A DNA stretch of 55,733 nt from a virus: the IMG/VR virus record IMGVR_UViG_3300032931_000778, positions 1-55,733 of that record. The stretch is one strand, 5' to 3'. A program made the position numbers and the translations under genes. Positions 11,424 through 51,172 of the stretch are shown piece after piece. How positions within the stretch are numbered: the stretch's first letter is position 1; each line of letters opens with the position of its first letter. The notes below the pieces were generated by a model, which saw only the letters and a list, made by a program, of their open reading frames with translations, ran no database searches and was not told where the DNA came from.

Positions 11424-12362
11424 TCAGGCGTCTTCGGGCGCGACCTCGGCTGCCACGAGGATCGCGGCCTCGCGCTCTACCTCGGCGTCCCCCTCGTCCA
11501 CATCGTAAGCCACCTCGGGCGGGGCCGGCAGCGGGTCGAGCCCCTCCAGCACCGCAATGGCGAAGAACCGACTGTAGAAGTACAGGCGCCCCTTGCCCGT
11601 GATGCGCGTCGTACGGTCGATCACCGCGCTCCCCTCCTGGGTCTCGCGCACGTGCTCCACGATCACCATGATGCGCTGCTCGATGCTGCGCTGTGTGGGT
11701 TCATTGCGCCGCGCCCCCCGCTTGTGGACAAAGCCCTCCTCGCGCAACCACGCGAAAAACACGTTCTGCCCCACGCGCTTGCCCGTGCCCTGCGTGATCG
11801 CCTTGGCCACCTGCCCCACATAGTACGAGGTCGGCGAGTCCATCACGCTCGCTGCGAAGCTCACGAACGGGGCCGAGCGCTCCTGATAGCGCACGAGCTG
11901 CTGTACCTGCACCTCGGCCTCGCGCCGCCCCTTAGCCTCCAACAGCCACGCCTCCGCCGAGGCGATTGGGTCGTTGAAATCGGGCAGCCCCGGCGGCACC
12001 GCACCGGGGGCCGTGTAGTTCCCCGTGCGCCGGATGCTAGGGATCACCTCGCCCGCGATCCACTTCTGGAATGGCAGGGCCCTTTCCATGTTACTGCGGG
12101 ACATGAAGAAATATAGCCCTTGCTCAGAAAGGCTAAGGATCTCCTGCATCCCACCAGGGGTAAGAAACGGTTTCTTACCCTTCCACTCCTCAGGAACATT
12201 TTCGACAAGATTCGTCATGCTGGTAGCTACTGTGCCATCTGGGTATCCAAGGGCCCGAGCTACATCCTTGGCTACCCACCACAGCTCTCCGTCGAACATG
12301 TCGACACGCACCTGGTTGCCCTCAAACTCGAACGCCCGCACGATCGCTGATTGCTCGCTCAT
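11424..12362 (-). CDS. Antirepressor with Bro-N and KilAC domains
   Basis: 312 aa, starting at ATG 12362 with AGGAG seven bases upstream. Residues about 8-110 form a Bro-N domain: V-D-M-F-D-G-E-L-W-W-V-A-K-D-V-A-R-A-L-G-Y, then S-E-Q-G-L-Y-F-F and F-Q-K-W-I-A-G-E-V-I-P-S-I-R. A KilAC (ANT) domain follows from about 165: Y-Y-V-G-Q-V-A-K-A-I-T-Q-G-T, V-F-F-A-W-L-R-E-E-G-F-V-H and N-E-P-T-Q-R-S. Proteins of this design block prophage repressors or alter host transcription. An intrinsic terminator separates it from upstream genes, and an inverted repeat covers its leader, so it is probably expressed separately from the tail operon. A KilAC paralogue lies at 27446-28321. Confidence 0.85.
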   Translation of the reverse strand: MSEQSAIVRAFEFEGNQVRVDMFDGELWWVAKDVARALGYPDGTVATSMTNLVENVPEEWKGKKPFLTPGGMQEILSLSEQGLYFFMSRSNMERALPFQKWIAGEVIPSIRRTGNYTAPGAVPPGLPDFNDPIASAEAWLLEAKGRREAEVQVQQLVRYQERSAPFVSFAASVMDSPTSYYVGQVAKAITQGTGKRVGQNVFFAWLREEGFVHKRGARRNEPTQRSIEQRIMVIVEHVRETQEGSAVIDRTTRITGKGRLYFYSRFFAIAVLEGLDPLPAPPEVAYDVDEGDAEVEREAAILVAAEVAPEDA

Positions 12363-12372
12363 AAACACTCCT

Positions 12373-12555: not shown

Positions 12556-13536
12556 TCAGGCCTGCGCGACCGGCTGCTGCCGCGCGCGCCCCGCCGCCGC
12601 CTCGCGGTCGATGGCGGATCCCCGCTTCGTCAGCTCGGCGTCCGCCGCCTTCGCCCGCTGCTTGGCCGCATGCTTGGCCTTCAGGCGCGCCTTCGCCGCC
12701 GTGACGTCCGCCGTGGTGGGGGCCGCCGCCTTCTTCTTAGAGGCCTGGCTGGCCATCGCCTTGCCCGCGTGCTTGCTCGGGCCCGTGCCCCCCGCGGCCC
12801 GGTGCTTGGCGATCAGCTGGAGGGCCGCCGCCGCGGCCTTGACCCGCTTCGCGTCCCCGCGCCCCATGCCCTGCTGCATCATGGAGAGGGCCCGCACCAG
12901 CTCCTTGTCGCCGCCCCGCCGCGCCGCCTTAAGCGCCTTGCCCACCTTCGCGGTGGTCTCCTGCGCCTGGGCCGTCTGATAGGCCGCGTGGACCTGGCCC
13001 GCGCTCGCCTTGACGCCGCGCCCCACCGCCGCGAGCCCGCGCCCCGTGGCCCGCAAGGCCTTGCCGAAGCGCGTCTTCATGAGCTGCTTGCCCTTCTTCT
13101 TGAGGGCCTTCTTGACGACCTTGAGCTTGTGCTTGCCCCGCCGCTTGAGGGCCGCCGCCTTGCCGCCCAGCACCGCGATCTTGTGGCGCATCGCCGGCGA
13201 CATCGCGTCCTTCGCCGCGCCCCAGCCCTTCTTGGCCAGCTGCGCCGTGCCCTTAGCCGCCGCCTTGCCCACCGCGGCGCCCGCCTGGCCCAGGCCCTTG
13301 GCCGCCGCCTTCCCGAGGATGCCCGCCATGCGCGTCCCCACGCCCTCGTTGAGCGCGGCCCCCGCCGGCGTCAGGGCCTCCACGCGCACGAGCCCCCCGC
13401 GCACGCGCATGCGCGCCCCGCGCCCCGGCAGGCGCCCCGCCTGCACGAGCCCCGGCTTGATGGTCCCCGGCCGCTTCCGGGGCATCCGGCTCCCCAACGG
13501 CACCGGGACCCCCGCCACGTTGGCACTCGTGATCAT
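12556..13536 (-). CDS. Very basic Lys/Ala-rich protein, unknown function
   Basis: 326 aa from the ATG that overlaps the stop of the preceding gene (ATGA). An earlier in-frame start exists but would cut far into that gene. The N-terminus has P-R-K-R-P-G-T-I-K-P-G. The remainder is Lys/Arg/Ala/Gly-rich with K-A-A-A-K-G, K-K-A-L-K-K-K-G-K-Q and A-A-K-A-R-L-K-A-K-H repeats, similar in composition to histone H1-like or nucleoid-packing proteins. No catalytic motif is visible. It may condense DNA in the capsid or bind host DNA or RNA; both are guesses from composition. It is the last gene of the accessory island before the terminator. One copy of the alternating 18-mer lies in its coding sequence. 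Confidence 0.7.
   Translation of the reverse strand: MITSANVAGVPVPLGSRMPRKRPGTIKPGLVQAGRLPGRGARMRVRGGLVRVEALTPAGAALNEGVGTRMAGILGKAAAKGLGQAGAAVGKAAAKGTAQLAKKGWGAAKDAMSPAMRHKIAVLGGKAAALKRRGKHKLKVVKKALKKKGKQLMKTRFGKALRATGRGLAAVGRGVKASAGQVHAAYQTAQAQETTAKVGKALKAARRGGDKELVRALSMMQQGMGRGDAKRVKAAAAALQLIAKHRAAGGTGPSKHAGKAMASQASKKKAAAPTTADVTAAKARLKAKHAAKQRAKAADAELTKRGSAIDREAAAGRARQQPVAQA
13399..13416. repeat. Alternating pyrimidine-purine motif, copy 3 (within a gene)
   Basis: GCGCACGCGCATGCGCGC lies within the basic protein gene and encodes A-R-M-R-V-R near residues 40-46. Confidence 0.55.
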
Positions 13537-14243
13537 CCGACATCCTTCTTCTGGATCGCATGCCACGTACCCGCCAGCACCGCCATCGCCTCCTCCGGCG
13601 TGCGCTTGACCTCAAACCCTACGCGAACCCCCTCGGGATGCCCCCCAAAGTCATAGGTCCACATCTTAAAGCCCCGATGCTTGGCCTTGATCCAGGTACG
13701 ATGCCCAAAGTGCTGCAAGAGATACGCCCCTACTTGCTGCTTGGCGTCCAGCAATGCTTCCTTTGCCGTCGCCGAGGTCCCCTTAACATCAACAAAAATT
13801 GTCCCCTGCACCCCCTGCACGGTGATCTCCTTGGGCAAGTGCTGCTTGGCCCACTGCACCACGTCACGCTGAATGGCCTCCACGTCCGAGAAGGGCTCCA
13901 CGGCCGCTTCCTCGATCGCCCGCAGGACCACCGCGGCCCCGCGCCGGTCGCGCTCCACAACGGCCCGCCACCCAGCCTCGCCCTCGAAGCGCCGCGCGAC
14001 CTGCCGCGCCACGGCCCCCGCGTCGTAGCCCTCCAGGACCGCCCGCAGGCCGCCCTCCGCCTCCGTGAAGCGGCAAGCGCGCCCCTTGGTCGCGCGCTCC
14101 GCCTCCATCCGCAGGAGCCGCGCCACGCGCCGCGCCTCGGGCCCCAGCCCCTCCGGGCGCGCCGGGGCCGCCACCTCGGGGGCCCGCGCCGCTTGGGGGG
14201 CCGCCACGATCGCCCGCAGCTTCGATGATAGCCGTCCGCGCAT
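13533..14243 (-). CDS. Unknown island protein with shared N-terminal peptide
   Basis: 236 aa from ATG 14243, preceded by GAGGTGAGC; a GTG five codons upstream is less likely. It begins M-R-G-R-L-S-S-K-L-R-A-I-V, the short amphipathic start seen on many neighbours. A Pro/Ala-rich linker follows, then a helical region and, from about residue 140, a compact alpha/beta part with T-I-F-V-D-V-K-G-T-S and W-I-K-A-K-H-R-G-F-K-M-W-T-Y-D-F-G-G. The last section (V-R-V-G-F-E-V-K-R-T-P) looks like a beta strand. I recognise no family. The DNA of the last third (13550-13800) is less G+C-rich than the front. Confidence 0.7.
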   Translation of the reverse strand: MRGRLSSKLRAIVAAPQAARAPEVAAPARPEGLGPEARRVARLLRMEAERATKGRACRFTEAEGGLRAVLEGYDAGAVARQVARRFEGEAGWRAVVERDRRGAAVVLRAIEEAAVEPFSDVEAIQRDVVQWAKQHLPKEITVQGVQGTIFVDVKGTSATAKEALLDAKQQVGAYLLQHFGHRTWIKAKHRGFKMWTYDFGGHPEGVRVGFEVKRTPEEAMAVLAGTWHAIQKKDVG

Positions 14244-14271
14244 GCTCACCTCATGCACCCCACGCGGGGCG

Positions 14272-15075
14272 CTACTGCTTCGCCTTGCCGCCCTTCACGC
14301 CCCGCTTCGCCGTGGGGCGGAACTTCCCGCTCTTCTTCGTCCAGCCGGGCCGCGCCGGGGACCCGCCCCAGGGCCCGCTGCCGTCCTGCGGGTAGAACAC
14401 GTGCTTGCCCCCCACGGTGCGCCACACGCCCTTCTTGCCCGGCGGCTTCACGTTCCAGACCTTGCCGCCCTTGCCGCTCGGCGTCGTGCTCCACCCCGGC
14501 GTCCGGTACTCCGCCAGGCAGCCCGCGACGATCCCCGCCAGGGCCTCGCTCAGGCGCCGCCCCCCGTAGGCGCGGGCCTCCTGCCGCTTCCGCTTGCCCC
14601 GCCCGAGGCCAGGAAGCCCGAGCTGCCCCTTCTGCGGCATCACGCCCTTGGACGCGCGGAACTTGCCCCCCCGGCCCGTCCAGCCCGGCCGGAACGGCGC
14701 GCCGCCCCAGGGGCCCTCGGGCACGTCCCCGCCCGGCTTATTCGGGAAGAAGAGGCGCTTCCCCTTGACCGTGACCCACTTGCCGTCGACCTCGCCCTTG
14801 GGCCCCGGCATCGTGGCCTCGCCCCCGACGCTCTTGCCCCGCGGCGCATCACGGTCCTGCGCCATCTTCTTGCGCCGCAGCTTGCCCATCTCCGTGCTGT
14901 GGTAGTCGCCGATGGCCGGCGCCAACGCGCGATGCACCGCCGCCCGCTTGCGAAACTCCGCCACCGGCATGCCGGCCGTCGCACTCGGGTGCTGCGGGGC
15001 CTTCGCCTTGGCCGGCCTGCGCGCCTCCGCCACCAGCCCCCGCAAGCCCTCGATCAACTGCCGCATCGTTGCCAT
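14272..15075 (-). CDS. Island protein with a duplicated G-K-x-V/L-F-F/Y-P module
   Basis: 267 aa. The start M-A-T-M-R-Q-L-I-E-G-L-R-G-L-V carries the shared N-terminal peptide. Two copies of one module follow: V-T-V-K-G-K-R-L-F-F-P then G-P-W-G-G-A-P-F-R-P-G-W-T near residues 100-140, and T-V-G-G-K-H-V-F-Y-P then G-P-W-G-G-S-P-A-R-P-G-W-T near 220-255. Each ends K-F-R. Between them is a very basic helical stretch (G-R-G-K-R-K-R-Q). The pI must be high. The repeated aromatic/Gly module could be a small beta fold binding nucleic acid or peptide. No named domain is recognised. Confidence 0.7.
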   Translation of the reverse strand: MATMRQLIEGLRGLVAEARRPAKAKAPQHPSATAGMPVAEFRKRAAVHRALAPAIGDYHSTEMGKLRRKKMAQDRDAPRGKSVGGEATMPGPKGEVDGKWVTVKGKRLFFPNKPGGDVPEGPWGGAPFRPGWTGRGGKFRASKGVMPQKGQLGLPGLGRGKRKRQEARAYGGRRLSEALAGIVAGCLAEYRTPGWSTTPSGKGGKVWNVKPPGKKGVWRTVGGKHVFYPQDGSGPWGGSPARPGWTKKSGKFRPTAKRGVKGGKAKQ

Positions 15076-15143
15076 CGCTCACGCTCCTCGCGTTGGGTCG
15101 TTCTCGTCTCGTTATACCGCGCGCCCCCGCCCCCGTCGCGCTT

Positions 15144-15710
15144 TTAGCCGCGATCTCCTTCAGCCACTTTCACTGGAAAATCTTGGCTAGCGTCCACATG
15201 CTTCCACGTTTTCCGCTTTGAGATCAAAAACACATTGCTTTGATCCATTCCAAAAAAACTGGCGATTCTTTTACAGGAATACCCCATGCCTCTCAGTCTA
15301 AGAATTTCACGAACATCATCCTCGGTTATTTTGCTATTTCCATGTTTGCTACCCCGAGGGATAGACGCAGGTTTCGTCCTTGAACCATGAAAATCACCAC
15401 TCGCACATCGGCCCCTCTTTACCTTGTCGACCATGTTTTCTATGTGCGTTCCAATACGAAGATGATCTGGATTTACACACTTTTCGTTGTCGCACGAATG
15501 TATAACAAGCCCCTCAATATCCGTGCTTCCATTGGCGATTGCAAACGCGATTCGATGAACACGCCGATTCTGACCATTTACATGAAAAACTCCATATCCA
15601 TCCTTGTCAAACGAACCACCACGCCATTCCCAACACCCAGACGCACCGGTCTTGTCAACGGATGCCCAAAACCGTTCCGCCACCTGCTCACTCATCCGCA
15701 AATCAATCAT
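15144..15710 (-). CDS. Free-standing HNH homing endonuclease
   Basis: 188 aa from ATG 15710 (a GTG one codon earlier is possible), preceded by GGGGAAACGG. Residues about 20-85 are an HNH_3 fold: F-W-A-S-V-D-K-T-G-x-x-G-C-W-E-W, Y-G-V-F-H-V-N, V-H-R-I-A-F, then the core H-S-C-D-N-E-K-C-V-N-P-D-H-L-R-I-G-T. A C-terminal helix-turn-helix-like part follows (D-V-R-E-I-L-R-L-R-G-M-G-Y-S and R-I-A-S-F-F-G-M-D-Q-S), probably for DNA recognition. Its G+C is clearly lower than that of the surrounding genes, so it is a recent arrival. It overlaps the end of the endolysin gene. It probably nicks or cuts related phage DNA near this locus. Confidence 0.88.
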   Translation of the reverse strand: MIDLRMSEQVAERFWASVDKTGASGCWEWRGGSFDKDGYGVFHVNGQNRRVHRIAFAIANGSTDIEGLVIHSCDNEKCVNPDHLRIGTHIENMVDKVKRGRCASGDFHGSRTKPASIPRGSKHGNSKITEDDVREILRLRGMGYSCKRIASFFGMDQSNVFLISKRKTWKHVDASQDFPVKVAEGDRG

Positions 15711-16372
15711 CACCGTTTCCCCATCACGATCTCTAATGGATAACGACCATCCGCATGGGATGCGAACGAGCGATGCTCAATCACACCTGGACTAGGCACG
15801 ACTGCCGGTTTGGAATCCCACCCGTCAATCTTTCGCTTCTTCGCGTTTAACCCCGCTGTAGGAAACACAAACGGAATCCCAAGAACCCCACACAACCACG
15901 GAACGAATGCCTTTAACACAGCCATCTGGATGGGCATCGGAAGAACGTACTTCTTCTCTCCTCCGGCCGGTATCCATGTCCACCATTCAGCCGGTATCGT
16001 GGCACCGAATGGTTTTCTAGCGTAGGAGGGGCAAAACGGGTTGACCACCTCGATACCGATCGACGTGGGGTTGAGCTGGTTGCCATGCACCATCACATCC
16101 GTCGCGAGGTCCCCGTGGCAGCTCAGCCGGCCCTCGGGCCCGAGGATGAGCTGCACGCCGTACCCCTTGCGGATCAGCGTGTCCTTGCACCCGCTCGCCG
16201 TGTTCCCGCAGGTCTCGTGCAGGACGAAGTGCTGGAGGGCCCGCACGCGCGGCTTGCGCCGGAACGCGGGCTCCCCGTCGTCCAGGTAGTTGCTCGCGCT
16301 GCCCCCCGCCGCGAAGACCTCGGGAGGCAGGGGCACGCGCGCCCCGTGGATGATCACCGCATGCGATGGCAT
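15710..16372 (-). CDS. N-acetylmuramoyl-L-alanine amidase endolysin (PGRP/amidase_2-like)
   Basis: 220 aa. The core F-V-L-H-E-T-C-G-N-T-A-S-G-C with G-Y-G-V-Q-L-I-L-G-P-E-G-R-L matches zinc amidases of the T7-lysozyme/PGRP fold: the first zinc histidine in V-L-H-E, and N-x-x-S-I-G-I-E-V-V-N later. The second ligand region appears at the C-terminus as E-H-R-S-F-A-S-H-A-D-G-R-Y-P, where an Asp takes the place often held by Cys or another ligand. There is no signal peptide or cell-wall binding domain, so a holin should be needed. AGGAG lies ten bases before the ATG. The 3' half (15714-16050) is lower in G+C than the 5' half. Confidence 0.75.
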   Translation of the reverse strand: MPSHAVIIHGARVPLPPEVFAAGGSASNYLDDGEPAFRRKPRVRALQHFVLHETCGNTASGCKDTLIRKGYGVQLILGPEGRLSCHGDLATDVMVHGNQLNPTSIGIEVVNPFCPSYARKPFGATIPAEWWTWIPAGGEKKYVLPMPIQMAVLKAFVPWLCGVLGIPFVFPTAGLNAKKRKIDGWDSKPAVVPSPGVIEHRSFASHADGRYPLEIVMGKR

Positions 16373-16386
16373 GGCTATCCGTTCTC

Positions 16387-16632
16387 CTAAACTGACCTAA
16401 ACAAGGACACGCCTTGCTCAGTGCTAGGCTCCTGCTTCATCGCGGCTAGTTGCACGAAAGGCTTACGCTTTTCGTCAGCGCTCCCCGCTCCACAGGCTGT
16501 CACCGCCGAACTGGCGGCAAGGATTTCACGTGCGCAATCGTTCCGTTTAACGCCGCATTTTCCAGGAAACGCACGCTTGGTTATCGCGGCGCTACCGGTG
16601 AAAATTGCCTCGTTTGTCAAATCACACGTCAC
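16387..16632 (-). pseudogene. C-terminal remnant of an IS200/IS605-type TnpB
   Basis: An 81-codon open stretch in the 304-bp interval between endolysin and the next gene. It reads G-K-C-G-V-K-R-N-D-C-A-R-E-I-L-A-A, then A-V-T-A-C-G-A-G and M-K-Q-E-P-S near the end. This matches the usual TnpB C-terminus (last Cys pair of the zinc finger, R-D-x-N-A-A-R-x-I-L, then A-C-G and K-Q-E-P). The RuvC core, the rest of TnpB and any TnpA are absent. A short hairpin (CAAGG/CCTTG) follows at about 16404-16418, and the stop runs into the endolysin ribosome site. G+C is below the surroundings. It is probably a decayed insertion; expression as a small peptide cannot be excluded. Confidence 0.5.
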
Positions 16633-16676
16633 GATCGTTCCTGTTTGTCCCTGTTAATCCTACTTTTCCTTCAACT

Positions 16677-16940
16677 CTACACGCCCTTCCTTGCCGCGTC
16701 GGCGCACCACCGCGCCCGCTCCCGCTCCCGCAGGTATTCCAACACGACCGTCAGGGCCGCCGCCTGGGCCGCGACCTGCGTGTACCCTTGAAACTGCTGG
16801 CTCACCACAGGCACACCAGGATCGCCGGCCGCCGCCGCCCGATCAAAGACCGTGACGCGCCAAGTGTTCGACTCCGCATAGTGCACCAGCTTGACGCCAA
16901 CCTCGAACGTGCACTCCCACACCGCCTGCTCCGTGCCCAT
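16677..16940 (-). CDS. Small island protein with the V-H-Y-A-E / W-x-V-T-V-F-D domain
   Basis: 87 aa. The central part V-K-L-V-H-Y-A-E-S-N-T-W-R-V-T-V-F-D is closely similar to a stretch of the next gene upstream (V-E-L-E-H-Y-A-E-T-D-R-W-S-A-T-I-F-D) and more distantly to the product of 19524-19808. A helix then carries A-A-L-T-V-V-L-E-Y-L-R. It lacks the shared M-R-x-L-L N-terminal peptide. I read it as a shortened paralogue. Function unknown. Confidence 0.65.
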   Translation of the reverse strand: MGTEQAVWECTFEVGVKLVHYAESNTWRVTVFDRAAAAGDPGVPVVSQQFQGYTQVAAQAAALTVVLEYLRERERARWCADAARKGV

Positions 16941-16954
16941 CGCAGTCCAGCCTC

Positions 16955-17509
16955 CTAGCCCTGCGCTACGGTGTACAGCGTGCGATCCCCCGCAACCTTG
17001 CGCTCCACATATTCCAGCTCTAACAGGTTGTCGAGCCGCACATCCACCCGCGCAGGATGCGCCTTCACGGCCCGCGCGAGCTGCCCCGCGTCCATCCAGC
17101 GCCCCACCAGCGCCTTCAGCATGCGCCGCTCGATGTCGTCGAGCTTCGCCGCCGGGTCGCTGAAGTCCGTGTCGATCGCCTCGCGCACGGGCCGCCGCTT
17201 CGCGCTCAGGTACTTCAGGGTCACCTCGATCGCGGCCTCCTCGGCCTCGTCCTGCGTGAGCCCCTTGGCAAAGGCCTGCCCGCCCACAATGTAGTCAGGG
17301 CTAAACTCCTCTTCCGCATCGCCATCGAAGATCGTCGCGGACCAACGGTCCGTCTCCGCGTAGTGCTCCAGCTCCACGCTGACCTTCTTCGTGGGATGCG
17401 CGACCAGCTTCTTGTCTGGCCCGAAGCTCGCATGGCCCAGCTTGGCTGGCTTGAAGGTAAACTGATAGCGCCCCGTGAGGCGCTCCAATAACGCACGCAT
17501 CGTGCCCAT
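16955..17509 (-). CDS. Island protein: shared N-terminal peptide, beta domain, C-terminal winged-helix-like part
   Basis: 184 aa from the ATG at 17509, three bases after the TGA that closes the previous frame. It begins M-G-T-M-R-A-L-L-E-R-L-T-G. Residues about 45-65 carry E-H-Y-A-E-T-D-R-W-S-A-T-I-F-D, followed by a helix with A-A-I-E-V-T-L-K-Y-L. The last 60 residues (L-D-D-I-E-R-R-M-L-K-A-L-V-G-R-W-M-D-A-G-Q-L, then V-D-V-R-L-D-N-L-L-E-L-E-Y-V-E-R) look like a winged helix. A translation that continues from the upstream gene without a break is also open, but the real boundary is marked by GGAGCG and a stop in the adjacent frame. Confidence 0.7.
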   Translation of the reverse strand: MGTMRALLERLTGRYQFTFKPAKLGHASFGPDKKLVAHPTKKVSVELEHYAETDRWSATIFDGDAEEEFSPDYIVGGQAFAKGLTQDEAEEAAIEVTLKYLSAKRRPVREAIDTDFSDPAAKLDDIERRMLKALVGRWMDAGQLARAVKAHPARVDVRLDNLLELEYVERKVAGDRTLYTVAQG

Positions 17510-17511
17510 GG

Positions 17512-18055
17512 TCACGCTCCTTCGATCCGCTGCGCCGCGATCACCTGCTCCTCGGCCGTCTCCAGATCGCCCGCCCGTAGCGCCTTGAGCGCCGCGAGCG
17601 CCGCCTTCTGCGCCTTGGGACCACTCCGCCAGCCAGTTGTCCCCCGCGCCCACCTGCCCATGGAAGGCCCGCATCGCGTTGAGCGCCTTGGCCTCCGCGG
17701 CCGTCAGCACCTCCCCCGCCGCCGGCCCCATGCGCCCGCCCCACTGGTTGCCCGCCCTCTCGATCAGAGAGCCCATCGTGCCCATGTCGGCGTCTTCCTT
17801 CCACGCGGCGGCGAAGTCCTGCTTGCGCACCCTCGGCATGGACTGTATCAATTTGCGCACCTCGCGCCCCTTTCCGACCTTGGCAAAGTTCTTACCTCGC
17901 TTCTTGACCAAGCGACCGAACACCATCTTGTAGCCCGGCGGCACCTTGCGCTCGCCGTCCTGCGCCGCCAGATCCTCCGGGGCGTGCTTCTGCGCCACGT
18001 CCCGCATCGTCATCGCCTCTTGGAGGTCCTCGATCAACCGCCTCATGCTTCTCAT
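17512..18055 (-). pseudogene. Island protein interrupted by a +1 frameshift at a C run
   Basis: Starts at ATG 18055 (M-R-S-M-R-R-L-I-E-D-L, ribosome site GAGGA). The frame codes well as far as D-N-W-L-A-E-W-S near 17620. Beyond 17617-17619 (a CCC run on the minus strand) the same frame becomes Gly/Arg/Ala-rich with no protein-like character. The neighbouring frame instead reads K-A-Q-K-A-A-L-A-A-L-K-A-L-R and E-E-Q-V-I-A-A-Q-R, then a TGA at 17512 just before the next ATG. Removing one C restores a gene of about 180 aa. A second internal start-like motif, M-G-T-M-G-S-L-I-E-R-A, lies near 17780, as if two island genes had fused. Sequencing error, mutation or programmed shift are all possible. 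Confidence 0.55.
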
Positions 18056-18062
18056 GGCATCC

Positions 18063-18518
18063 TCACACGGCCTTGAGGCCGCTCGCAAAGGCGCGATCCC
18101 GCGCCGGTTGGGTCCGCTCCGTGCGGTAGGCCCGGTTGAGACTCTTGCGGATCACGCTCCGGTCCACGCTGCGCCCCACGTCCGCGAGCACCGCCGCGAG
18201 CCGGCCATCCCCCGCCAGGGCCTCCGCGTCCCGCAGGCGCCAGCGCGCCGTCCACCAGTAGCCCAGGGGGCGCCGCGTCCACCGCAGGAGCACCCAGGGG
18301 GCGCCGCCCGCCCAGCGCGGGGCCCGCACCGTCAGGCGCAGCTCGCCCATCCCCAAGCGCCCCCGGATCGGGGCCCGCAGGCGCCCCTGCACCCAGCCCG
18401 GCGTGCGCTCCAGCGGCGCCGTCCAGCGCGCGGGCGCATTCGGGCGCACGCGCCCCGCGTGCGTCAGCACGGTGAGCACGTGGTCCAGGGCCAGCTGCAC
18501 AGCGGCGTCCGGGGTCAA
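18063..18518 (-). CDS. Basic island protein, unknown function
   Basis: 151 aa. The best start is TTG 18518 with GGAGG five bases upstream; no ATG or GTG fits better. The N-terminus D-A-A-V-Q-L-A-L-D-H-V-L-T-V-L is an amphipathic helix. The middle is Trp/Arg/Gly-rich (R-A-P-R-W-A-G-G-A-P-W and G-Y-W-W-T-A-R-W-R-L-R). The end is helical and basic, with R-S-V-I-R-K-S-L-N-R-A-Y-R. No family recognised. It lacks the shared peptide but lies inside the cluster that carries it. Confidence 0.6.
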   Translation of the reverse strand: MTPDAAVQLALDHVLTVLTHAGRVRPNAPARWTAPLERTPGWVQGRLRAPIRGRLGMGELRLTVRAPRWAGGAPWVLLRWTRRPLGYWWTARWRLRDAEALAGDGRLAAVLADVGRSVDRSVIRKSLNRAYRTERTQPARDRAFASGLKAV

Positions 18519-18528
18519 GACATCCTCC

Positions 18529-18912
18529 TCAACGCATGCTGTCCGGCGGCCAGTCGATCCGGTAGGCCGGATCGCGCGGCTGCTTGGGCTCCTCGTGCTC
18601 CACCGTCACCTCGATGCCCTCGCGTCCGGGGAGCTTGATGGGCCGCTTGCCCGCCAGCATCCGCTGGATCGCGGCCTCCTCGACGTTCTCGTTCTCTAGC
18701 GCGTCGTGAATCTCATCCTCGTCCACCGGCCACTGCGTGACGTGGCCCTCGTTGACATCGTAGATCTTCTCGTCGCGCAGGTCCGCCACCCACCCGTCGT
18801 GCCGATCCCAGAGCAGATCGAAGACCTTCACCCGCGTGTGGCTCGTCACCGTCTCCATGCGCCCCCCGCGCCCCTCGACCAGCGCCCGCAGGCGGCTGCT
18901 CAGCATGCCCAT
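18529..18912 (-). CDS. Acidic island protein with shared N-terminal peptide
   Basis: 127 aa. Begins M-G-M-L-S-S-R-L-R-A-L-V-E-G-R, matching its neighbours. After residue 25 a beta-rich part reads V-K-V-F-D-L-L-W-D-R-H-D-G-W-V-A-D-L. An acidic helix follows (V-D-E-D-E-I-H-D-A-L-E-N-E-N-V-E-E-A-A-I-Q-R-M-L). The C-terminal tail is Glu/Pro-rich. No named domain. The short gaps on both sides suggest it belongs to one transcript with the other island genes. Confidence 0.68.
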   Translation of the reverse strand: MGMLSSRLRALVEGRGGRMETVTSHTRVKVFDLLWDRHDGWVADLRDEKIYDVNEGHVTQWPVDEDEIHDALENENVEEAAIQRMLAGKRPIKLPGREGIEVTVEHEEPKQPRDPAYRIDWPPDSMR

Positions 18913-18921
18913 ACCGGCCTC

Positions 18922-19527
18922 CTACATGCCGCGGGCGTCGCCCGCCGCGTTCTTGCCCGCCGTCGTGAGGCTCAGGGCCCCCGCCTTGTTCTTGGCCACC
19001 AGCTTCTTGGCCACCAGGGCGTCGACCTCGTCCGGCGTCACCTTGTTGTCCGCGAACAGCTCCTTCCGGTATGCCGAGGTGAACCCCAGCATCGCCAGGA
19101 TGCGCTGCTCCCGCTCCGTCACGTCCGCCTTGCCCGGCAGGAGGGGCGCCAGCGCGCTCGGGTGCACCGAGATGCTCGCCGAGGTGCCATGGTAGCCCGA
19201 GGTCCCCACGATCGCCGCGCCGTCCGGCGGCAGGGGGTAGCTCGCCTGCGCGGTGTCGATCGACCGGGCCACAAACATGTTGGCCCCGCCCCACGAGCCC
19301 TCCGAGGCCTTGTAGACCCCCGTCGCCAGGTTGACGACCACGGCGAAGCCCTTCTGCCCCTCCCCCGCGTAGGGGTTCAGGTCAACCTCCGCGCGCGCCG
19401 ACACGTTGATGTCGCGCCGCCCATAGCCCACGCTCTTGAGGGCCTTCTGCAGGACCTCCGGTAGCTCCTTCACCTGAACCACGGTCCCGTGCAAGCCCTC
19501 TTCTAGTCGCTCCAATAACGCTCTCAT
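18922..19527 (-). CDS. Island protein with shared N-terminal peptide and C-terminal winged-helix-like part
   Basis: 201 aa. Starts M-R-A-L-L-E-R-L-E-E-G-L, nearly identical to the start of the gene at 16955-17509. A middle section has V-S-A-R-A-E-V-D-L-N-P-Y and G-F-A-V-V-V-N-L-A-T-G, probably strands. The C-terminal 70 residues read V-T-E-R-E-Q-R-I-L-A-M-L-G-F-T-S then V-T-P-D-E-V-D-A-L-V-A-K-K-L-V and G-A-L-S-L-T-T-A-G, resembling a winged helix with its turn-helix and wing. Its ATG overlaps the stop of the gene at 19524 (ATGA). Function unknown; nucleic acid binding is a reasonable guess. Confidence 0.68.
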   Translation of the reverse strand: MRALLERLEEGLHGTVVQVKELPEVLQKALKSVGYGRRDINVSARAEVDLNPYAGEGQKGFAVVVNLATGVYKASEGSWGGANMFVARSIDTAQASYPLPPDGAAIVGTSGYHGTSASISVHPSALAPLLPGKADVTEREQRILAMLGFTSAYRKELFADNKVTPDEVDALVAKKLVAKNKAGALSLTTAGKNAAGDARGM

Positions 19528-19808
19528 AGCTTCCTCTCCGCGCTCCCGTGCATAAACTGGGCAAGCAGCGTGGCGCCCACGCGCTCGGCCTCCGCCTGCG
19601 TCGCTACGGGCAGCACCTCGCGCTTGACCGTCTCCCCACGCTCGTGGGCGTAATCAAACACCGAGACCACCCAGCCCTGGCCCTTGTTGTGCGGGTAGAG
19701 CCGCACCTGGATGTCAGGATCGGCCGTGTCCGCCACGATCCACCCGCCCTTAATGGGCCGGAAGACCAGCGCATGCGCCGCTTCAAGCTGCATCAACAGG
19801 GCGCGCAT
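19524..19808 (-). CDS. Small island protein with shared N-terminal peptide and beta domain
   Basis: 94 aa from ATG 19808. The open frame extends further upstream, but that part overlaps the next gene and has no protein-like character. It begins M-R-A-L-L-M-Q-L-E-A-A-H. The body has G-G-W-I-V-A-D-T-A-D-P-D then V-R-L-Y-P-H-N-K-G-Q-G-W-V-V-S-V-F-D, a weaker form of the W-x-V-x-V-F-D signature of two other island genes. A helix with Q-A-E-A-E-R-V-G-A-T-L-L follows. Likely paralogous to those proteins. Function unknown. Confidence 0.65.
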   Translation of the reverse strand: MRALLMQLEAAHALVFRPIKGGWIVADTADPDIQVRLYPHNKGQGWVVSVFDYAHERGETVKREVLPVATQAEAERVGATLLAQFMHGSAERKL

Positions 19809-19813
19809 CGCGC

Positions 19814-20080
19814 TCAGTAGCCCCCGCCCATGAAGGCCTCGTCGTCCCGCGCCGCCTGGAACTCCCGCCACGCCTTGTCCTTGTTGGCGCCCGCCAGGAT
19901 GAGCTTGTCGTTGGGGTAGTAGAGGACCTCCTCGCCCTTCTTGTAGGCCAGGCCCTTAGCGTCCGTTCCTGCCGCCTTCGCCTTCATGAGGTAGGGATCG
20001 CGCCCCCGCCCGCTGCTGCGCCCGCCCCACTCCACAATCGTCCGCAGGTCCGCAGCCAACGCCCGTAGATTCCGTGCCAT
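19814..20080 (-). CDS. Small island protein with extended shared N-terminal peptide
   Basis: 88 aa. Starts M-A-R-N-L-R-A-L-A-A-D-L-R-T-I-V, a variant of the island peptide. It then has G-R-G-R-D-P-Y-L-M-K-A-K and K-K-G-E-E-V-L-Y-Y-P-N-D-K, recalling the G-K-x-V-F-Y-P module of the gene at 14272-15075. The end is helical (A-W-R-E-F-Q-A-A-R-D-D-E). It is the first island gene after the holin-like gene. No family recognised. Confidence 0.65.
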   Translation of the reverse strand: MARNLRALAADLRTIVEWGGRSSGRGRDPYLMKAKAAGTDAKGLAYKKGEEVLYYPNDKLILAGANKDKAWREFQAARDDEAFMGGGY

Positions 20081-25092: not shown

Positions 25093-25101
25093 GTCCCCGT
25101 C

Positions 25102-26210: not shown

Positions 26211-26230
26211 CTCAACTCCTCACCGCGAGC

Positions 26231-26248
26231 CGCGCACGCGCATGCGCA
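26231..26248. repeat. Alternating pyrimidine-purine 18-mer, copy 5 (intergenic)
   Basis: CGCGCACGCGCATGCGCA, ending two bases before the stop of the small acidic gene, in the 40-bp gap before the tail-completion candidate. Confidence 0.65.
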
Positions 26249-26250
26249 AC

Positions 26251-28481: not shown

Positions 28482-29174
28482 CTACGCGCTTTGCGGCCCG
28501 CGCGCCACCCGTTTCTTGCCAGGCGCCGCCGCCTGCGCCTTCAGCGCGCGCCGCGTCTCGTGCCCCTTCACCGCCGCCGCACTCCGCTTGGCCGCCAGGG
28601 CCTGCGCCGCCAGCGCCTTGGCCGCCCGCTTCTGCGCGCGCTGCGCGCTGATCAGCTTGGCCGCCATCGTGACGCGCCCCGCCCGCTGCTTGTCGGCCGG
28701 CTTCTGCTTCTCCAGGCCCATGCGCCGCGAGGCGCCCCGGAGGTGCTGGCGGATGCCCTCCATCATGCTCTGGTGCTTCGTGCGCTTGGGCCGGTAGCCG
28801 TAGTGCCGCTTCACCTGGTTCTTCCAGAACCGCATGGCCTGCTCGTAGTTCGGCTTGCCCTTGGCCACGATCCGCCCCTCCGTCGCCATGCGCGCCACCG
28901 CGCTCCACCAGAAGGTCGCGGAGTCCGGGAAGGGGATCTGCGCGGGGTCGATCAGGTACCACGGGGGCTGCAAGTAGCGCCCGTACTTGGCCTTGGCCTG
29001 CTCCACCGTCAGCTGCTCGGGCCGGGGGTTGCGCGTCGGCATCCGGGGCTTGATCGCCCGCTCCTCCAACAGCGCCGCCAGTTGCCCCGCAAGCCCCTCG
29101 TTGCGCACGCGCATGCGCAGGGGCGCCCCCACGATCGCCCGTAAGATCCCCGCGAGCTGCCCCGCCGTCCTCAC
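28482..29174 (-). CDS. Basic protein with shared N-terminal peptide, outside the island
   Basis: 230 aa, GTG start overlapping the previous stop (GTGA). It opens M-R-T-A-G-Q-L-A-G-I-L-R-A-I-V, the island peptide, although it lies 8 kb from the main cluster. The middle is Trp/Tyr-containing and folded-looking (Y-L-Q-P-P-W-Y-L-I-D-P, F-W-W-S-A-V-A-R-M, A-M-R-F-W-K-N-Q-V). The last 70 residues are a Lys/Arg/Ala helix (Q-R-A-Q-K-R-A-A-K-A-L-A-A-Q), much like the gene at 12556-13536. Both basic proteins directly precede a terminator plus an antirepressor. DNA packing or binding is a guess. Confidence 0.65.
   Translation of the reverse strand: MRTAGQLAGILRAIVGAPLRMRVRNEGLAGQLAALLEERAIKPRMPTRNPRPEQLTVEQAKAKYGRYLQPPWYLIDPAQIPFPDSATFWWSAVARMATEGRIVAKGKPNYEQAMRFWKNQVKRHYGYRPKRTKHQSMMEGIRQHLRGASRRMGLEKQKPADKQRAGRVTMAAKLISAQRAQKRAAKALAAQALAAKRSAAAVKGHETRRALKAQAAAPGKKRVARGPQSA
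29102..29119. repeat. Alternating pyrimidine-purine 18-mer, copy 6 (within a gene)
   Basis: TGCGCACGCGCATGCGCA, encoding L-R-M-R-V-R-N directly after the shared N-terminal peptide of the 28482-29174 protein. Confidence 0.6.
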
Positions 29175-43933: not shown

Positions 43934-45526
43934 TCAGAAGTTCGAGGTCACGGTCGGGAGCCCGCTGACGGTCACGACGCCGTAGTACTCCGGGCGGAGC
44001 AGCTTGGTGGCGAAGCGCGAGGCGAAGCCCTTTTTGAAGGTGAAGGTGTGCGGGTCCTGCCAGGTCGGGGTGACCTGCAGCGGGATGTACGGCGCGAACA
44101 CGTAGCCCGCGTCGAGGAAGTTGGCACCGCGGAGCCCGACGAGCACCTTGTTGTCGTCCAGGAACGGATCCTGGTAGACCGTGAACTTCCGCATCATCGT
44201 GCCGACCATCTGGATGCCGTAGTCGCTCGTGAGCGGCCCGTAGCTCGGGGGCACGATCTGGCTGGCCCCCATGTCGAAGTCGTGGTGGCTCGTGAGCTGG
44301 CTGAGCAGCGACACGACGGCCGGGCTGGCGACGATGAAGTTCGCCGGCGCGCGCAGCGTGGACTTGTGGATCTTCGCGGCCACCGCGTCGATCTGGGTCA
44401 GGAACGAGCGGATGTTCTCGATCTCGCCCGGCACCGTCGCGCTGTAGCTGAAGGTCGCCTGGTGGGCGGCGCCCGCCACGAGGTCCGTGATGACCTTGCG
44501 GTCGATTTCCAGGGCGATCTCGTTGCTCAGGCCGGCGACCAGCTCGGCCTCCATGTTGAGGCCGTGGAGGGCCCGCAGGTCGTCCATGGCTTCCTGCGAC
44601 CAGCTGGCGCGCAGCTTGTAGGCCTCGGCCGTCACGGTCGACATGGCCATGTCCATGGACACGCCCGGCACCGCGGCGCCGGAGGTCGTGTTCACGAGTT
44701 CCCAGTTCACGTAGTACTGGGCATAGATGACGTGGTTCGCGCTGAAGTTGCAGCCCGCGCCCCCCGCGGTCTTCGGCGTCAGCGTCCAGGCGCCCGTGGA
44801 GGCGACGAAGGTGCCAACGGCATTGCCATGGTTGTCGGTGAGGGCCGTGGAGCCGCCCGTCGGGTCGAGGGTGGCGACCTTGTTCTCGCTGCCCGCCTCG
44901 ACCGTGCGGTAGAAGAGCTTCACCGAGAAGGTGCGCTGGCCGCTGGTGCCCGGCGTGCGGATCGGCTTCCAAGCCGGGATGCGGCAGTTGCCGGCGCCCT
45001 GGTTGAGGGTGCCCGTGGCCGCGCCGGTGTCCGTGCAGAGCACGTCGTAGTCAACGTACTCGGAGGCGTAGTTCTTCGCGAAGTTGCGGATGAGGGCGTC
45101 GCCCGCGCTCAGCTCGCCGTCGTAGCCCTGGCTGTAGGGATAGTCCGTGATGCCGTTGGCCGGGATCTTCGAGCCCTTGCGGCCCTCGTACTTGTAATCC
45201 CAGGTGAAGACCGCGCCGACCGGGGCCGACAGCGGCTGGACCGACGTGATCTGGTTGGCGATCAGGTTGGGGAACACCCGGCGCAGCACCGGGAAGATGT
45301 ACTTGGTGAACGAGCCGACGTTCGTGCTCAGCGCATCCTCGCTGAGGTTCTTCATGTACGTGGCCTGGTTCTCCAGGAGGATGGCGGCGACGCCCTTGGT
45401 GTAGGGGTTGCGCACGCCGTCGGTGCCCTCCAGCAGCTGGCCCCACTTGCGGCTGAGCTGGGAGACGTAGGACTTGTCGGCGACGGTCTTGCCGCCACTC
45501 TCGGTCAGGATGTTGCGAGCTTCCAT
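43934..45526 (-). CDS. Major capsid protein (gp23-like)
   Basis: 530 aa, about the T4 gp23 size. After an N-terminal region with L-L-E-N-Q-A-T-Y-M-K-N comes I-F-P-V-L-R-R-V-F-P-N-L-I-A-N-Q-I-T-S-V-Q-P-L, the clearest gp23 signature. W-D-Y-K-Y-E-G follows, then the late HK97-fold parts: E-A-E-L-V-A-G-L-S-N-E-I, L-Y/V-G-L-R-G-A-N-F-L-D-A-G-Y and P-Y-I-P-L-Q-V-T-P. The first 60 or so residues may be removed by the protease encoded next door, as in T4. GAGAGG lies upstream of the ATG. It builds the capsid shell. Confidence 0.92.
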   Translation of the reverse strand: MEARNILTESGGKTVADKSYVSQLSRKWGQLLEGTDGVRNPYTKGVAAILLENQATYMKNLSEDALSTNVGSFTKYIFPVLRRVFPNLIANQITSVQPLSAPVGAVFTWDYKYEGRKGSKIPANGITDYPYSQGYDGELSAGDALIRNFAKNYASEYVDYDVLCTDTGAATGTLNQGAGNCRIPAWKPIRTPGTSGQRTFSVKLFYRTVEAGSENKVATLDPTGGSTALTDNHGNAVGTFVASTGAWTLTPKTAGGAGCNFSANHVIYAQYYVNWELVNTTSGAAVPGVSMDMAMSTVTAEAYKLRASWSQEAMDDLRALHGLNMEAELVAGLSNEIALEIDRKVITDLVAGAAHQATFSYSATVPGEIENIRSFLTQIDAVAAKIHKSTLRAPANFIVASPAVVSLLSQLTSHHDFDMGASQIVPPSYGPLTSDYGIQMVGTMMRKFTVYQDPFLDDNKVLVGLRGANFLDAGYVFAPYIPLQVTPTWQDPHTFTFKKGFASRFATKLLRPEYYGVVTVSGLPTVTSNF

Positions 45527-45587: not shown

Positions 45588-47192
45588 TCATGACAGGCCG
45601 GAGAGCTGCCGCATCATTGCGGGGTCCAGGCCGAAGTCGGCCAAGTCGCCCGCGCCCGCCGTGCCTGCCCCGCGTGGGGCCACGGCCTCCTCCTCCAGCG
45701 TCGCCGGCCGCGCCTGGGCCCGCGTCAGCTGCGCGCGCATGCGCTCCAGCTGCCCGTCGCCCATCGTCGTCCGTCCCCGCTGCCGCACCAGCCGATCGAC
45801 CTCATCTGTGCTCGCAACGCCCTCTAGCAACTCAATCAACTCGCGCCCGTTCGTCAACCCTGCGACGCTCTCGGCCTTGTACGCCGCGAGGTCCGCCGTG
45901 GCCCGCGCCTCGGCCAGATCCCGCTGTAGCGTGGCGACGCGCTGCTCAGCTCCCCGTGCGCGCGCCTCCAGGCCCTCGCCGCCTTCAACAGCCAGCTTCA
46001 ACTGCATCTGCTTCTCGGCCAGTCTCCCGTGCAATTCCTTCGACTCCGCGAAGAGCCGCTTGCGCTCGCCCTCCCAGCGCCGCGTGGCCTCGGCCAGCGG
46101 GTTGGGGGCAGGGGGCAGCACCTCTAGCTGCCGCAGCACGCCACGCACGCGCGTGCGCACCTCGGCCTCGTCCTCTAACAGCCCGGCGTCAGCCAATAGC
46201 TCGCGCGCCATCGCCGCATGGGGATGGTTCGCCACGAGGCGCTCCGCCAGGAGCTGGTAGCCTGCCTCGCGGGCCACCCCGCGATAGGCCTCCGCCTGCT
46301 CGCGCAGCCCCGTGATCTCCGCGCGCTGGGCCTGCAGGGCCGCCGCCACGTGGTCCTCGGGAACCGTCGGCAGGTAGGGCCGCAGGAGCTGCGCCACCGT
46401 GGCCAGCACGGCGCCCGCGCCGTCTGCCTCAGCCTCCTCGCGCAGCTCGGCCCGCACCTCGGCCCGCAGCCCCTGTAGGGCCTCGAGGAGCCCGCGCTCG
46501 AAGCGCTCGCGCTCCTCCTCACGGGCCTCCACCACCGCCGCCTCAACGTCCGTGCTCGCCGCCGCCTGAAGCTGCGCCTGCGCCTTCGCCAGCGCGCGCT
46601 CCACCATGCCCTCCTCCAACGCCGCGAGGGCCTCGGGGATCTGCGCCTTCAGGCCCTCCGCATCGTACGGATCGTTCACATCCTCCGTGAATACCTCGGG
46701 GTACGCCGTCTTCATCGCAGGGTCTGCCACGAAGTCCCACGTCTTGAGGTTGTAGTCCTCGCAGACGTCCTCGCCGTCCCCGGTCTCGCTCGGCTTCGTG
46801 CTCCCAAAGCCCCGCGAGCTGACGCCAATCTCCACCCGATGGCGCATCAGCGCCGCCAAAATGCGGCCGTTCGGCGTATCCAAGATCTCGGCGGCCCCCA
46901 TCACACGGCCATCCTCCTCGACCCGCGCCTCGGTGATCAGCGCTGCGGCCTTCATCAAGGAAGATTTTCCCGATTCTGGATGATCGAGTTCACTGAGCAC
47001 GCGCCGCCGCTTGATGTCCTCCTGGAGCTTCTTGACCTCGCGCTCATAGATGGCCTTGGGATAGCGCCGCCCGTTCTGCGTCGGGGTGTCGTAACGCCCA
47101 AACTCGCCGCGCGCTACGAGCTTGCCCGTGCCCTTGTCCTCGGTCAGGGTGAACGTCGTGGTGATCGTCTCAGTCAGCAGCTTGCCGCTCAT
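45588..47192 (-). CDS. Prohead protease fused to scaffold-like coiled-coil region
   Basis: 534 aa. Residues about 10-190 resemble T4 gp21-type prohead proteases: F-G-R-Y-D-T-P-T-Q-N-G-R-R-Y-P, L-S-E-L-D-H-P-E (likely catalytic His), and I-G-V-S-S-R-G-F-G-S (likely catalytic Ser), then W-D-F-V-A-D-P-A. From about 205 to 480 the chain is Glu/Ala/Arg/Leu-rich coiled coil (A-L-A-K-A-Q-A-Q-L-Q, E-E-E-R-E-R-F-E-R), as expected of a scaffold core like gp22. In T4 these are separate genes; here one polypeptide carries both. The protease would free itself and cut scaffold and capsid during maturation. Confidence 0.8.
   Translation of the reverse strand: MSGKLLTETITTTFTLTEDKGTGKLVARGEFGRYDTPTQNGRRYPKAIYEREVKKLQEDIKRRRVLSELDHPESGKSSLMKAAALITEARVEEDGRVMGAAEILDTPNGRILAALMRHRVEIGVSSRGFGSTKPSETGDGEDVCEDYNLKTWDFVADPAMKTAYPEVFTEDVNDPYDAEGLKAQIPEALAALEEGMVERALAKAQAQLQAAASTDVEAAVVEAREEERERFERGLLEALQGLRAEVRAELREEAEADGAGAVLATVAQLLRPYLPTVPEDHVAAALQAQRAEITGLREQAEAYRGVAREAGYQLLAERLVANHPHAAMARELLADAGLLEDEAEVRTRVRGVLRQLEVLPPAPNPLAEATRRWEGERKRLFAESKELHGRLAEKQMQLKLAVEGGEGLEARARGAEQRVATLQRDLAEARATADLAAYKAESVAGLTNGRELIELLEGVASTDEVDRLVRQRGRTTMGDGQLERMRAQLTRAQARPATLEEEAVAPRGAGTAGAGDLADFGLDPAMMRQLSGLS
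46143..46159. repeat. Alternating pyrimidine-purine motif, copy 9 (within a gene)
   Basis: ACGCACGCGCGTGCGCA in the scaffold-like part of the protease gene, encoding V-R-T-R-V-R. Confidence 0.45.
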
Positions 47193-49324: not shown

Positions 49325-51172
49325 CTAATCCGTTCTGCTATAGCCGGCCGCACGCCGATCCCGCCGATCCCGCCGCGCCTGCCGCTCCATCGCCCGATCG
49401 ATCCCCTCGACCCGCGCCGCCATGCGCTCCGTGAGCCGCGTCACGCGGCTGTGCTCATTCAGCAGGCGGTCCAGGCGCGCCTTTACCGCCGCGTCCCCAT
49501 CAAGGGCCCAGCCCCGATCCTCGACCCCCTCGGGCACCCCCGCCTCAGCTGCCCCCGCCTCTGGCGGCATCCCGCCCTCGGCCCCCATCGGGCCCATCAC
49601 GGTCTCGGGGTACTCGCGGATGATCTCCGCCTGCGTCGCCGCGTCGCCCTTCATGGACCCGCGCTTGTCCTTGCGCGCCTCGTCCGTCACGTAGATGGCC
49701 TCGTCCTGCGAGAAGCCAAACACATGCTGGAGGATCCAGGGCTGCGGCACCAGCTCGCCCAGGCCCTGCGCGAGCTGCGCCTGCTGCAACCGCACCTCCA
49801 ACTGCGCCAGCTCGAAGATGTACGAGGGCACCGTCATGTGGAGGTCGAAGGCCACGCCGTCAGGGTCGATACCGAGGGCCGCGAGGTGGATCCGGCAGAT
49901 CTGCTTCACGCCGTTGCGCACCTCGCGCTGCACCCGCATGGCCGCCCGCGCAAACCGCACGTCGTCCCCGCTCGCGATGCGCCCCGTGGTCTCCTCCATC
50001 CCGAGGAGGCGCTTGGGGGTCTGCGCCGCGGCGAGCACCTTGTTGCGGAAGTACTCCAGGATGTCGAGGTCCTGCGAGTCCACGCCCTGCAGCACGTCCA
50101 CGCGCGTCGAGTCCTTGCCCCCGCGCGTGGGGAGCCAGAGATCCTCCAATCCATTGCCAATATTGTAGCGAAAGTCGATCTGCCCCGTGCTCGGGTTAAA
50201 GACCTTCTTGCGCGTGTACTGCTGCTGGATCTTCTTGACGTGCGCCCACCCCTCGGCCGGCGGCAGGTCGCCCGTGTCAATGTAAAAGGCGTTCCGCGAG
50301 GGCCCACGCGTCAGCTTGGTCACCAGCGCGGTGTCCTCCATCATCATGAGGCGCTTCCAGGCCCAGCGCCCGCCATCGAGCACGCTCACGCCATAGACCG
50401 CCGTGGTGTCCTTCTGCCGCAGGCGCCAGTGCACAACCTCCCAGGGCTCGAAGACCACGCACCCATTGACGGGCTTGCGCTGGTCACGCGCGATCTTCAA
50501 TGCCGCATCGAACTCGCGCTGCATGAGCTTGAACTGCCCCGTGGGGTCCTGGATGAAGCCCAGCGTGGTTCCGTGGTTGTCCTGCACGCGCCGCATCGTG
50601 GGGGGCGCCAGGAAGTTGATCCCGACGACGCCCATCTTGCCCACGAGCACCTCGCCGAAGCGATTGCCGTACTTGGCCAGCGTGCGGGCGAGCCCATGCA
50701 CATCGTCCTCGACCCGCAGGCGCCGCGTGAGGAGGTCCTCCAGCACGTCGCGCACCAGCTTGTCCTTCGAGGAGGCCCAGATGCTGCGCCCCGTGTTGCT
50801 GTCCGGGATCGAGGCGTCGTCCGCGTAGAGCGTGAAGATCGACGAGGTGAGGTCATAGTCGTCCATGTCCTCAGAATCGCGGTACCGCTGCATGAGGTCG
50901 TCGGAGAGCTGGAGGGCCTGCGCGACGGGGCTGTTCGCATCGAAGTTGCCGCCGGTCTGCAGGGCGAGGGCTCCTACATAGCCATCCTTGGCGAGGAGGG
51001 GGTTGTCCTGGTGCTTGCCCGCGATCTCAGCGCCCTGCGTCACGCCGCGGGGCGCCGTGGGGCCCTCCTGCGCCGGGCCGGATCCGCGCCCCAGCCACCC
51101 CCGGATCTTGCCCCAGAGGCCGTCGCCCTTGCCCCCGGCATCGGTCGCTTGCTGCTGCTTGGGATCCGCCAT
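49325..51172 (-). CDS. Portal protein (gp20-like)
   Basis: 615 aa. The gp20-type pattern runs through the protein: L-S-D-D-L-M-Q-R-Y-R-D-S-E-D-M-D near 90, S-S-I-F-T-L-Y-A-D-D-A, L-A-R-T-L-A-K-Y-G-N-R-F, then W-E-V-V-H-W-R-L-R, the stem-like A-F-Y-I-D-T-G-D-L-P-P, Y-N-I-G-N-G-L-E-D-L-W-L-P and L-D-I-L-E-Y-F-R-N-K. Twelve copies would form the ring through which terminase packs DNA. The C-terminal 60 residues are Arg-rich (R-Q-A-R-R-D-R-R-D-R-R). The 299-bp gap before it holds a transposon-like remnant. Confidence 0.9.
   Translation of the reverse strand: MADPKQQQATDAGGKGDGLWGKIRGWLGRGSGPAQEGPTAPRGVTQGAEIAGKHQDNPLLAKDGYVGALALQTGGNFDANSPVAQALQLSDDLMQRYRDSEDMDDYDLTSSIFTLYADDASIPDSNTGRSIWASSKDKLVRDVLEDLLTRRLRVEDDVHGLARTLAKYGNRFGEVLVGKMGVVGINFLAPPTMRRVQDNHGTTLGFIQDPTGQFKLMQREFDAALKIARDQRKPVNGCVVFEPWEVVHWRLRQKDTTAVYGVSVLDGGRWAWKRLMMMEDTALVTKLTRGPSRNAFYIDTGDLPPAEGWAHVKKIQQQYTRKKVFNPSTGQIDFRYNIGNGLEDLWLPTRGGKDSTRVDVLQGVDSQDLDILEYFRNKVLAAAQTPKRLLGMEETTGRIASGDDVRFARAAMRVQREVRNGVKQICRIHLAALGIDPDGVAFDLHMTVPSYIFELAQLEVRLQQAQLAQGLGELVPQPWILQHVFGFSQDEAIYVTDEARKDKRGSMKGDAATQAEIIREYPETVMGPMGAEGGMPPEAGAAEAGVPEGVEDRGWALDGDAAVKARLDRLLNEHSRVTRLTERMAARVEGIDRAMERQARRDRRDRRAAGYSRTD

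Follow-up and report, generated by a model that had tools for sequence, protein, structure and literature searches.

A shared N-terminal leader on unrelated small proteins of a T4-type metagenomic phage, a probable capsid-targeting tag

Why do unrelated small proteins in the late region of a virus begin with the same short peptide? The question is raised by a virus record of 55.7 kb (IMGVR_UViG_3300032931_000778; 55,733 nt), and the whole of this stretch is called the window below. An earlier note on this DNA had listed genes sharing the peptide, i.e., the leader, and had read it as a capsid-targeting signal on accessory proteins. The answer favoured here as very likely is that the shared N-terminus would be a capsid-targeting leader removed by a protease, like that of the phage T4 internal proteins, on a far larger set of cargo; packaging, cleavage, and injection are reasoned by analogy with T4. 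One peptide is placed on many unrelated small proteins, and the relatives have tags of their own. The most likely fate of the tagged proteins is therefore packing in the phage head and delivery to the host, where at least some of them would counter its defences.

The positions listed in the earlier note were correct as coordinates, but they are 3' ends and not gene starts, because every listed gene is read from the minus strand and has its N-terminus at the high coordinate. Gene 1 (13533..14243, 236 aa) begins with MRGRLSSKLRAIVAA, and the N-terminal part of its body is conserved in the related genomes G006-G013 (relatives are denoted by G numbers). Gene 2 (14272..15075, 267 aa) carries MATMRQLIEGLRGLVAEA before a body with repeated short Gly/Pro/Trp motifs, and gene 3 (16955..17509, 184 aa) carries MGTMRALLERLTG before a body with a weak winged-helix match at its C-terminus. 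Gene 4 (17512..18055) begins with MRSMRRLIEDLQEAM at 18055 and contains a leader-like segment at 17785, listed as MGTMGSLIERAGNQ, the internal form of which is given as MGTMGSLIERAG. It is followed by gene 5 (18529..18912, 127 aa, MGMLSSRLRALVEG), gene 6 (18922..19527, 201 aa, MRALLERLEEGLH, with the body from about residue 17), gene 7 (19524..19808, 94 aa, MRALLMQLEAAH, the weakest accepted leader), and gene 8 (19814..20080, 88 aa, MARNLRALAADLRTIVEWG), the body of which is also found within a 991-aa protein of G021. Gene 9 (28482..29174, 230 aa) has a GTG start and begins with MRTAGQLAGILRAIVGA.

The leaders were aligned in two forms, i.e., [RG]-x-L-x-x-x-L-R-x-[LI]-V or M-R-x-L-[LI]-E-x-L, with the core R-x-[LM]-[LIV]-[E/A/G] present in both. 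With a position-specific scoring matrix (PSSM), the eight called window genes scored 21-24 bits in-sample, and the next-best window gene scored 4.6. In leave-one-out scoring, eight leaders reached 9-18.5 bits, the leader at 19808 reached 6.0, and the segment at 17785 scored -2.7; in the PSSM background, about 0.03% of internal 11-mers reached 10 bits. The form LxxxLRx[IL]V was found at five window gene starts against 0.05 expected (p 3e-9). By the PSSM, no leader was seen on the portal, terminase, and tail proteins of the window. The PSSM, leave-one-out scores, and pattern counts thus confirmed the peptide on at least eight genes. The bodies differ as the earlier note had claimed, since the eight called leader open reading frames (ORFs) fell into eight families after leader removal.

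The leader at 17785 is not supported alone, because of its leave-one-out score. The separate leader gene that had been proposed at 17512 is actually the second domain of the protein starting at 18055. The intact two-domain counterpart, G002:104676, has an internal MRAMIEAEG. Relative to it, the window shows a one-base frame shift near 17620, which joins gene 4 in frame to gene 3 and is either a sequencing error or a real mutation. Adjoining the island, a Lys/Ala-rich basic protein (12556-13536) has an N-terminus like those of leaderless neighbours in G006, G009, and G012.

The genome is high in GC and rich in Arg and Leu, and the 17785 leader fails leave-one-out scoring. This would fit a chance likeness among Arg/Leu-rich starts. 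From the window, the pattern M-x(0-3)-[RK]-x-[LMI]-[ILVM]-E was derived, fixed, and counted at the gene starts of the relatives. Genes were called with a simple caller, in which starts were chosen on codon score, start codon, and ribosome-site strength. The background was the internal start codons of the same genomes. Related genomes were treated separately; G007, G008, and G013 are near relatives of one another and not independent. Pattern matching was followed by hand curation of the leader lists, which removed nine chance-like entries. The close relatives G001 (161 kb) and G002 (168 kb) had 16 and 26 leader genes, respectively, in several clusters. The fixed pattern occurred 11 times in G006 against 0.21 expected (p 6e-16), 12 times in G008 against 1.8, and 13 times in G002 against 0.60. 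In the genomes scanned after the pattern was fixed, the counts were 18 against 1.4 in G025 (p 2e-14), 8 against 0.78 in G026, and 5 against 0.70 in G024. In G022, the leader was not seen beyond two genes. The more distant G017 and G021 have a different leader, [LI]-[SA]-x-Q-L-x-E-A, with [LI]SxQLQEA on up to 20 genes. It was counted 19 times against 0.25 expected in G017, where the pattern was derived, and 9 times against 0.28 in G021.

An unbiased N-terminal motif search by expectation-maximization (EM), with one gene per body family, also found leader motifs above shuffles in G002, G017, G025, and G026. The same search did not separate motifs from shuffles in G006 and G020, and the window alone is too small for separation. 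It misses the T4 leaders because they are too few, whereas a directed pattern finds them. The search through the phage and its relatives, which the earlier note had called for, thus recovered the same N-termini, including those of the three later-scanned genomes. Against 5-18 matches seen, internal start codons predict 0.2-1.8, and shuffled N-termini do not produce the motif. Chance resemblance was refuted for the leader set as a whole, and its probability is practically negligible. With the leader removed, 143 leader proteins across the relatives formed 82 body families.

A shared gene start can also come from the DNA or mRNA, i.e., from a recombination cassette or ribosome loading, or from recent duplication, and need not be a working peptide. 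Such an origin would fit the clustering of the genes, which resembles a cassette array. However, shared leader residues use the same codon no oftener than codon usage predicts (e.g., 0.52 vs. 0.60 and 0.37 vs. 0.42), and the conservation of DNA 5' of the start is confined to the last 10 bases, where the ribosome site lies. Therefore, selection acts on the leader peptide, not on the DNA. The bodies are also unrelated, and an origin of any of these kinds is very improbable.

The leader is separable from its cargo, because one and the same body can stand behind a variety of leaders or behind none. Homologs of the gene 6 body (18922-19527) were found in 27 viral contigs. They are placed behind MRALLERLEEGL, MRHLIERVERIMEA, MRYLIERINRLLEA, MTTLRSKLIRLAHSDPSLRPHLLPLLKEAA, and two other short N-terminal extensions. 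Some occur in longer proteins, beside a leader (L331) or following a leader and another domain (L318-L320), and some are leaderless, with the start codon 1-8 residues ahead of the domain. Other body and leader swaps were found in the pairs G009:13423/G017:98736, G006:53274/G017:82211, G002:45708/G021:164183, and G017:150523/LR745208. In the 485-kb phage LR745208, the leader LRSKLIRLAH...LLPLLKEA is placed on at least nine unrelated genes (11 matches).

The 28-30 residue peptide LRSKLIRLAHxNPxLRPxLLPLLKxA of LR745208.1 (L175-L183) was also observed on genes of other large phage contigs (L335-L347).

The 991-aa multi-domain protein of G021 (G021:30004, in L109) has six L/M-x-E-A sites against 0.9 expected. 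The LxEA sites fall between segments, some of which are separate tagged genes elsewhere, and the body of window gene 8 (19814) is one of the parts. It is a guess that the prohead protease, an S77 peptidase, may cut these sites.

The neighbouring genes bear on where such a peptide would lead its cargo. The window genes lie nearly all on the minus strand and together make up the late region, in the order terminase, portal, protease, capsid protein, head-tail adaptor, sheath, tubes, leader island, tape measure, and baseplate; the tape measure and baseplate labels were given from size and position. The major capsid protein (MCP; 43934..45526, minus strand) belongs to the Gp23 family (Pfam Gp23, E 9e-64). 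The prohead protease (45588..47192, minus strand) has a Peptidase_S77 domain of the T4 gp21 family with a long extension (E 6e-17), and the portal protein (49325..51172, minus strand) is of the T4 gp20 family (Portal_T4, E 4e-49). All three matches are above the Pfam cut-off, and one tube protein matches Pfam gp19. Judged by its head proteins, the virus is therefore a member of the T4 superfamily. The conserved HP and GVSSRG motifs, with their histidine and serine, are common to the window protease and T4 gp21. The nearest capsid proteins among known phages have only about 30% identity to the window MCP, and DNA similarity search of the sheath-tube region against known phages gave no match. 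In IMG/VR, 335 relatives of the capsid protein were found.

Two features of the protease were observed in addition. Its extension in this lineage (window 45588-47192) looks like a coiled coil and may be a scaffold or a protease-scaffold fusion. The S77 proteases of G001 (24440-27202), G004, and G026 (60349-63120) have a large in-frame insert at about residue 73, which is probably an intein.

The gene order of tube, island, and tape measure, found in the window, G010, and G012, would fit a leader that directs proteins to the tail, i.e., to the tube lumen or tape measure, and not to the head. In G002, however, the tail genes are distant from the large leader clusters, which are located at 41.8-54 kb and 142-143 kb. 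The leader core also resembles the N-terminus of the capsid protein, MEARNILTE in the window and MEARxLLE in several relatives, and not that of tube, sheath, or tape measure proteins; the MCP of G026 itself fits the leader pattern. Together with a site of the prohead-protease type in most leaders, these points make a tail destination unlikely.

The site, [LIMVF]xE, was found within the first 24 residues of 54/60, 29/29, and 28/29 leaders in three groups (111/118 in total); these counts are descriptive, as the finding pattern itself favours E in two of the three groups. Against shuffles, sites of the [LIVM]xE type are enriched at the N-termini of G002 (z 6.2), G021, and G017. Short Arg/Leu-rich helices could bind membranes or nucleic acid, and a helix is predicted here with low confidence. 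The leader may then be an uncut anchor or interaction helix inside the infected cell, at the membrane, the nucleoid, or a common partner. Leaderless bodies of the same family are known, however, and the [LIVM]xE site in most leaders and the similar core on the MCP also argue against such an anchor. It is considered quite improbable.

The capsid-targeting reading is supported by the T4-type head set, the conservation of the peptide, its start-specific recurrence in relatives, its separability, and the [LIVM]-x-E in most leaders. The island would be expressed late with the head and tail genes, as its same-strand late-gene context suggests. The short leader, predicted as a helix with low confidence in one usable model, would bind the assembling prohead core. 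The S77 prohead protease may then cut after [LIVM]-x-E as gp21 does, both the protease and the sites being present. By the example of T4, the body would remain in the head beside the DNA and be ejected into the next host. There the bodies would have an immediate effect on the host, in at least some cases against immunity, as the domain match of one relative suggests. The leaders differ by phage lineage, and cargo domains would move between lineages and then bear the tag of the carrier phage. It is somewhat better than an even guess that large, mostly undescribed T4-superfamily and huge-phage lineages have a general virion delivery system. Each lineage would have its own cleavable head tag on tens of interchangeable effectors, some of them made of several domains that are separated by leader-like or LxEA sites.

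Several points weigh against capsid targeting and cleavage. The lineage is known from metagenomes alone. The more distant relative G028, a contig of a Phycisphaerae metagenome-assembled genome (MAG), showed no leader and no excess in the fixed-pattern scan. In LR745208, whose leader swaps with the window-type leader, no S77 protease or Gp23 was detectable. The site is weakly enriched in the window alone (7 observed, 2.6 shuffled, 4.7 internal), and a clear [LIVM]xE is missing from three window leaders (13533, 19524, and 28482). The MRxLIER-type leaders of G006 and G008 often have Arg or Lys after E, where T4 has Ala. In sequence, the leader is not directly similar to MKTYQEFIAEA of T4; the layout alone is common to both. 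Lastly, almost all of the cargo is without a family match.

The anti-defence role proposed in the earlier note found partial support in one relative, whereas the cargo bodies of the window had no recognised function in family searches. In a Pfam scan of 85 leader proteins, good scores were obtained for Tad6, RelA_SpoT, SprT-like, and DUF3175, and for little else. Tad6, a type I Thoeris inhibitor, was found in the tagged protein G008:193860 (E 2e-20), in which the part behind the leader matches the C-terminal half of the profile; a leaderless homolog is present in G005 (G005:37282). A further homolog, YerA41_059, is annotated as a structural protein. It may belong to the 63 particle-associated proteins that were detected by liquid chromatography-tandem mass spectrometry in the YerA41 paper. 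Other tagged proteins (G021:104884, G017:97927, G002:45708, and G009:13423) showed a RelA/SpoT domain, an SprT-like domain, and HExxH metalloprotease-like motifs. By tblastn against known phages, the bodies at 13533 and 28482 gave no match.

A first structure model of the 18922 protein, built from 5 close sequences, was discarded for its poor quality. A second, built from 17 sequences, had a mean predicted local distance difference test score (pLDDT) of 78.5, with the leader residues 1-10 at 59. It had no PDB fold match (best E 0.06) and one unnamed viral match; therefore, no function is assignable from the model.

Some other features of the late region and the relatives were observed. The terminase ORF (51472-55236) is broken by a probable intein, with a cysteine at its start and HN|T at its end. 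In the middle of this intein (52911-54248), another frame encodes a repeat-rich protein resembling a NUMOD3-type homing endonuclease. Two different antirepressor-type proteins, Bro-N/ANT (11424-12368) and P22_AR_N/ANT (27446-28405), are located within the late region. A 183-kb contig in a Phycisphaerae MAG, JAJDDX010000500.1 (L188), encodes relatives of the window capsid protein and protease. Its placement is possibly a hint at the host, or possibly a binning error.

If the capsid-targeting reading is true, the leader has a practical meaning. A short peptide pattern would identify, from sequence alone, proteins injected at the start of infection, anti-defence genes among them. About 80 body families have been gathered, nearly all without known function, and one is a known anti-defence domain. 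One cargo domain behind several tags makes a clean set for finding the part of the tag needed in head packing, and the natural tags could be used to load phage heads with proteins. What has been documented mainly for T-even phages would be extended to a deep and widespread metagenomic group.

Among known systems, the closest likeness in layout is that of T4, whose capsid-targeting sequence (CTS), internal proteins (IPs) IPI-III, and Alt were reportedly treated by Mullaney and Black in 1996. The T4 IPs have only the N-terminal CTS of 10-20 residues in common; by means of it they enter the prohead core, and gp21 cuts it (PMC3012670, PMC5694885, PMC12373910). Both systems have a short N-terminal leader on non-homologous accessory proteins, accessory genes in hotspots, and a T4-type head with Gp23 and S77 protease. 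A candidate cut site of the [LI]-x-E type, as in T4, lies in most of the leaders here but is not clear in all of them. The known cargo in T4 is anti-restriction. The leader sequence here, however, is unrelated to that of T4. The two long close relatives have 16 and 26 tagged genes, whereas T4 has three IPs plus Alt, and at least 10 IPs are known across the T-even phages. The system here also differs from T4 in having leaders peculiar to each lineage on cargo common to several, and tagged proteins of several domains with leader-like sites inside them.

In phage P1, the N-terminal 30 residues of DarB suffice to bring a reporter into the capsid, and DarB is an anti-restriction cargo delivered at infection (PMC9024508). 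The N-terminal packaging signal is alike, but in P1 one large protein is shown to use it, and a tag family on many small proteins is not described in that paper. In the giant phages SPN3US and phiKZ, the prohead protease cuts after x-x-E in several ejected head proteins, and gp53 and gp54 have an identical 15-residue N-terminus (PMC5694885). Several propeptides there are longer than 100 residues, the motif in SPN3US is A-x-E, and one tag is placed on few proteins. By analogy, the system of the window would work like the T4 CTS, with the same enzyme family and layout, and is not a proven member of it. Compared with the open-licence literature, the size of the tagged set, the lineage-specific tags on shared cargo, and the tagged multi-domain proteins are new.

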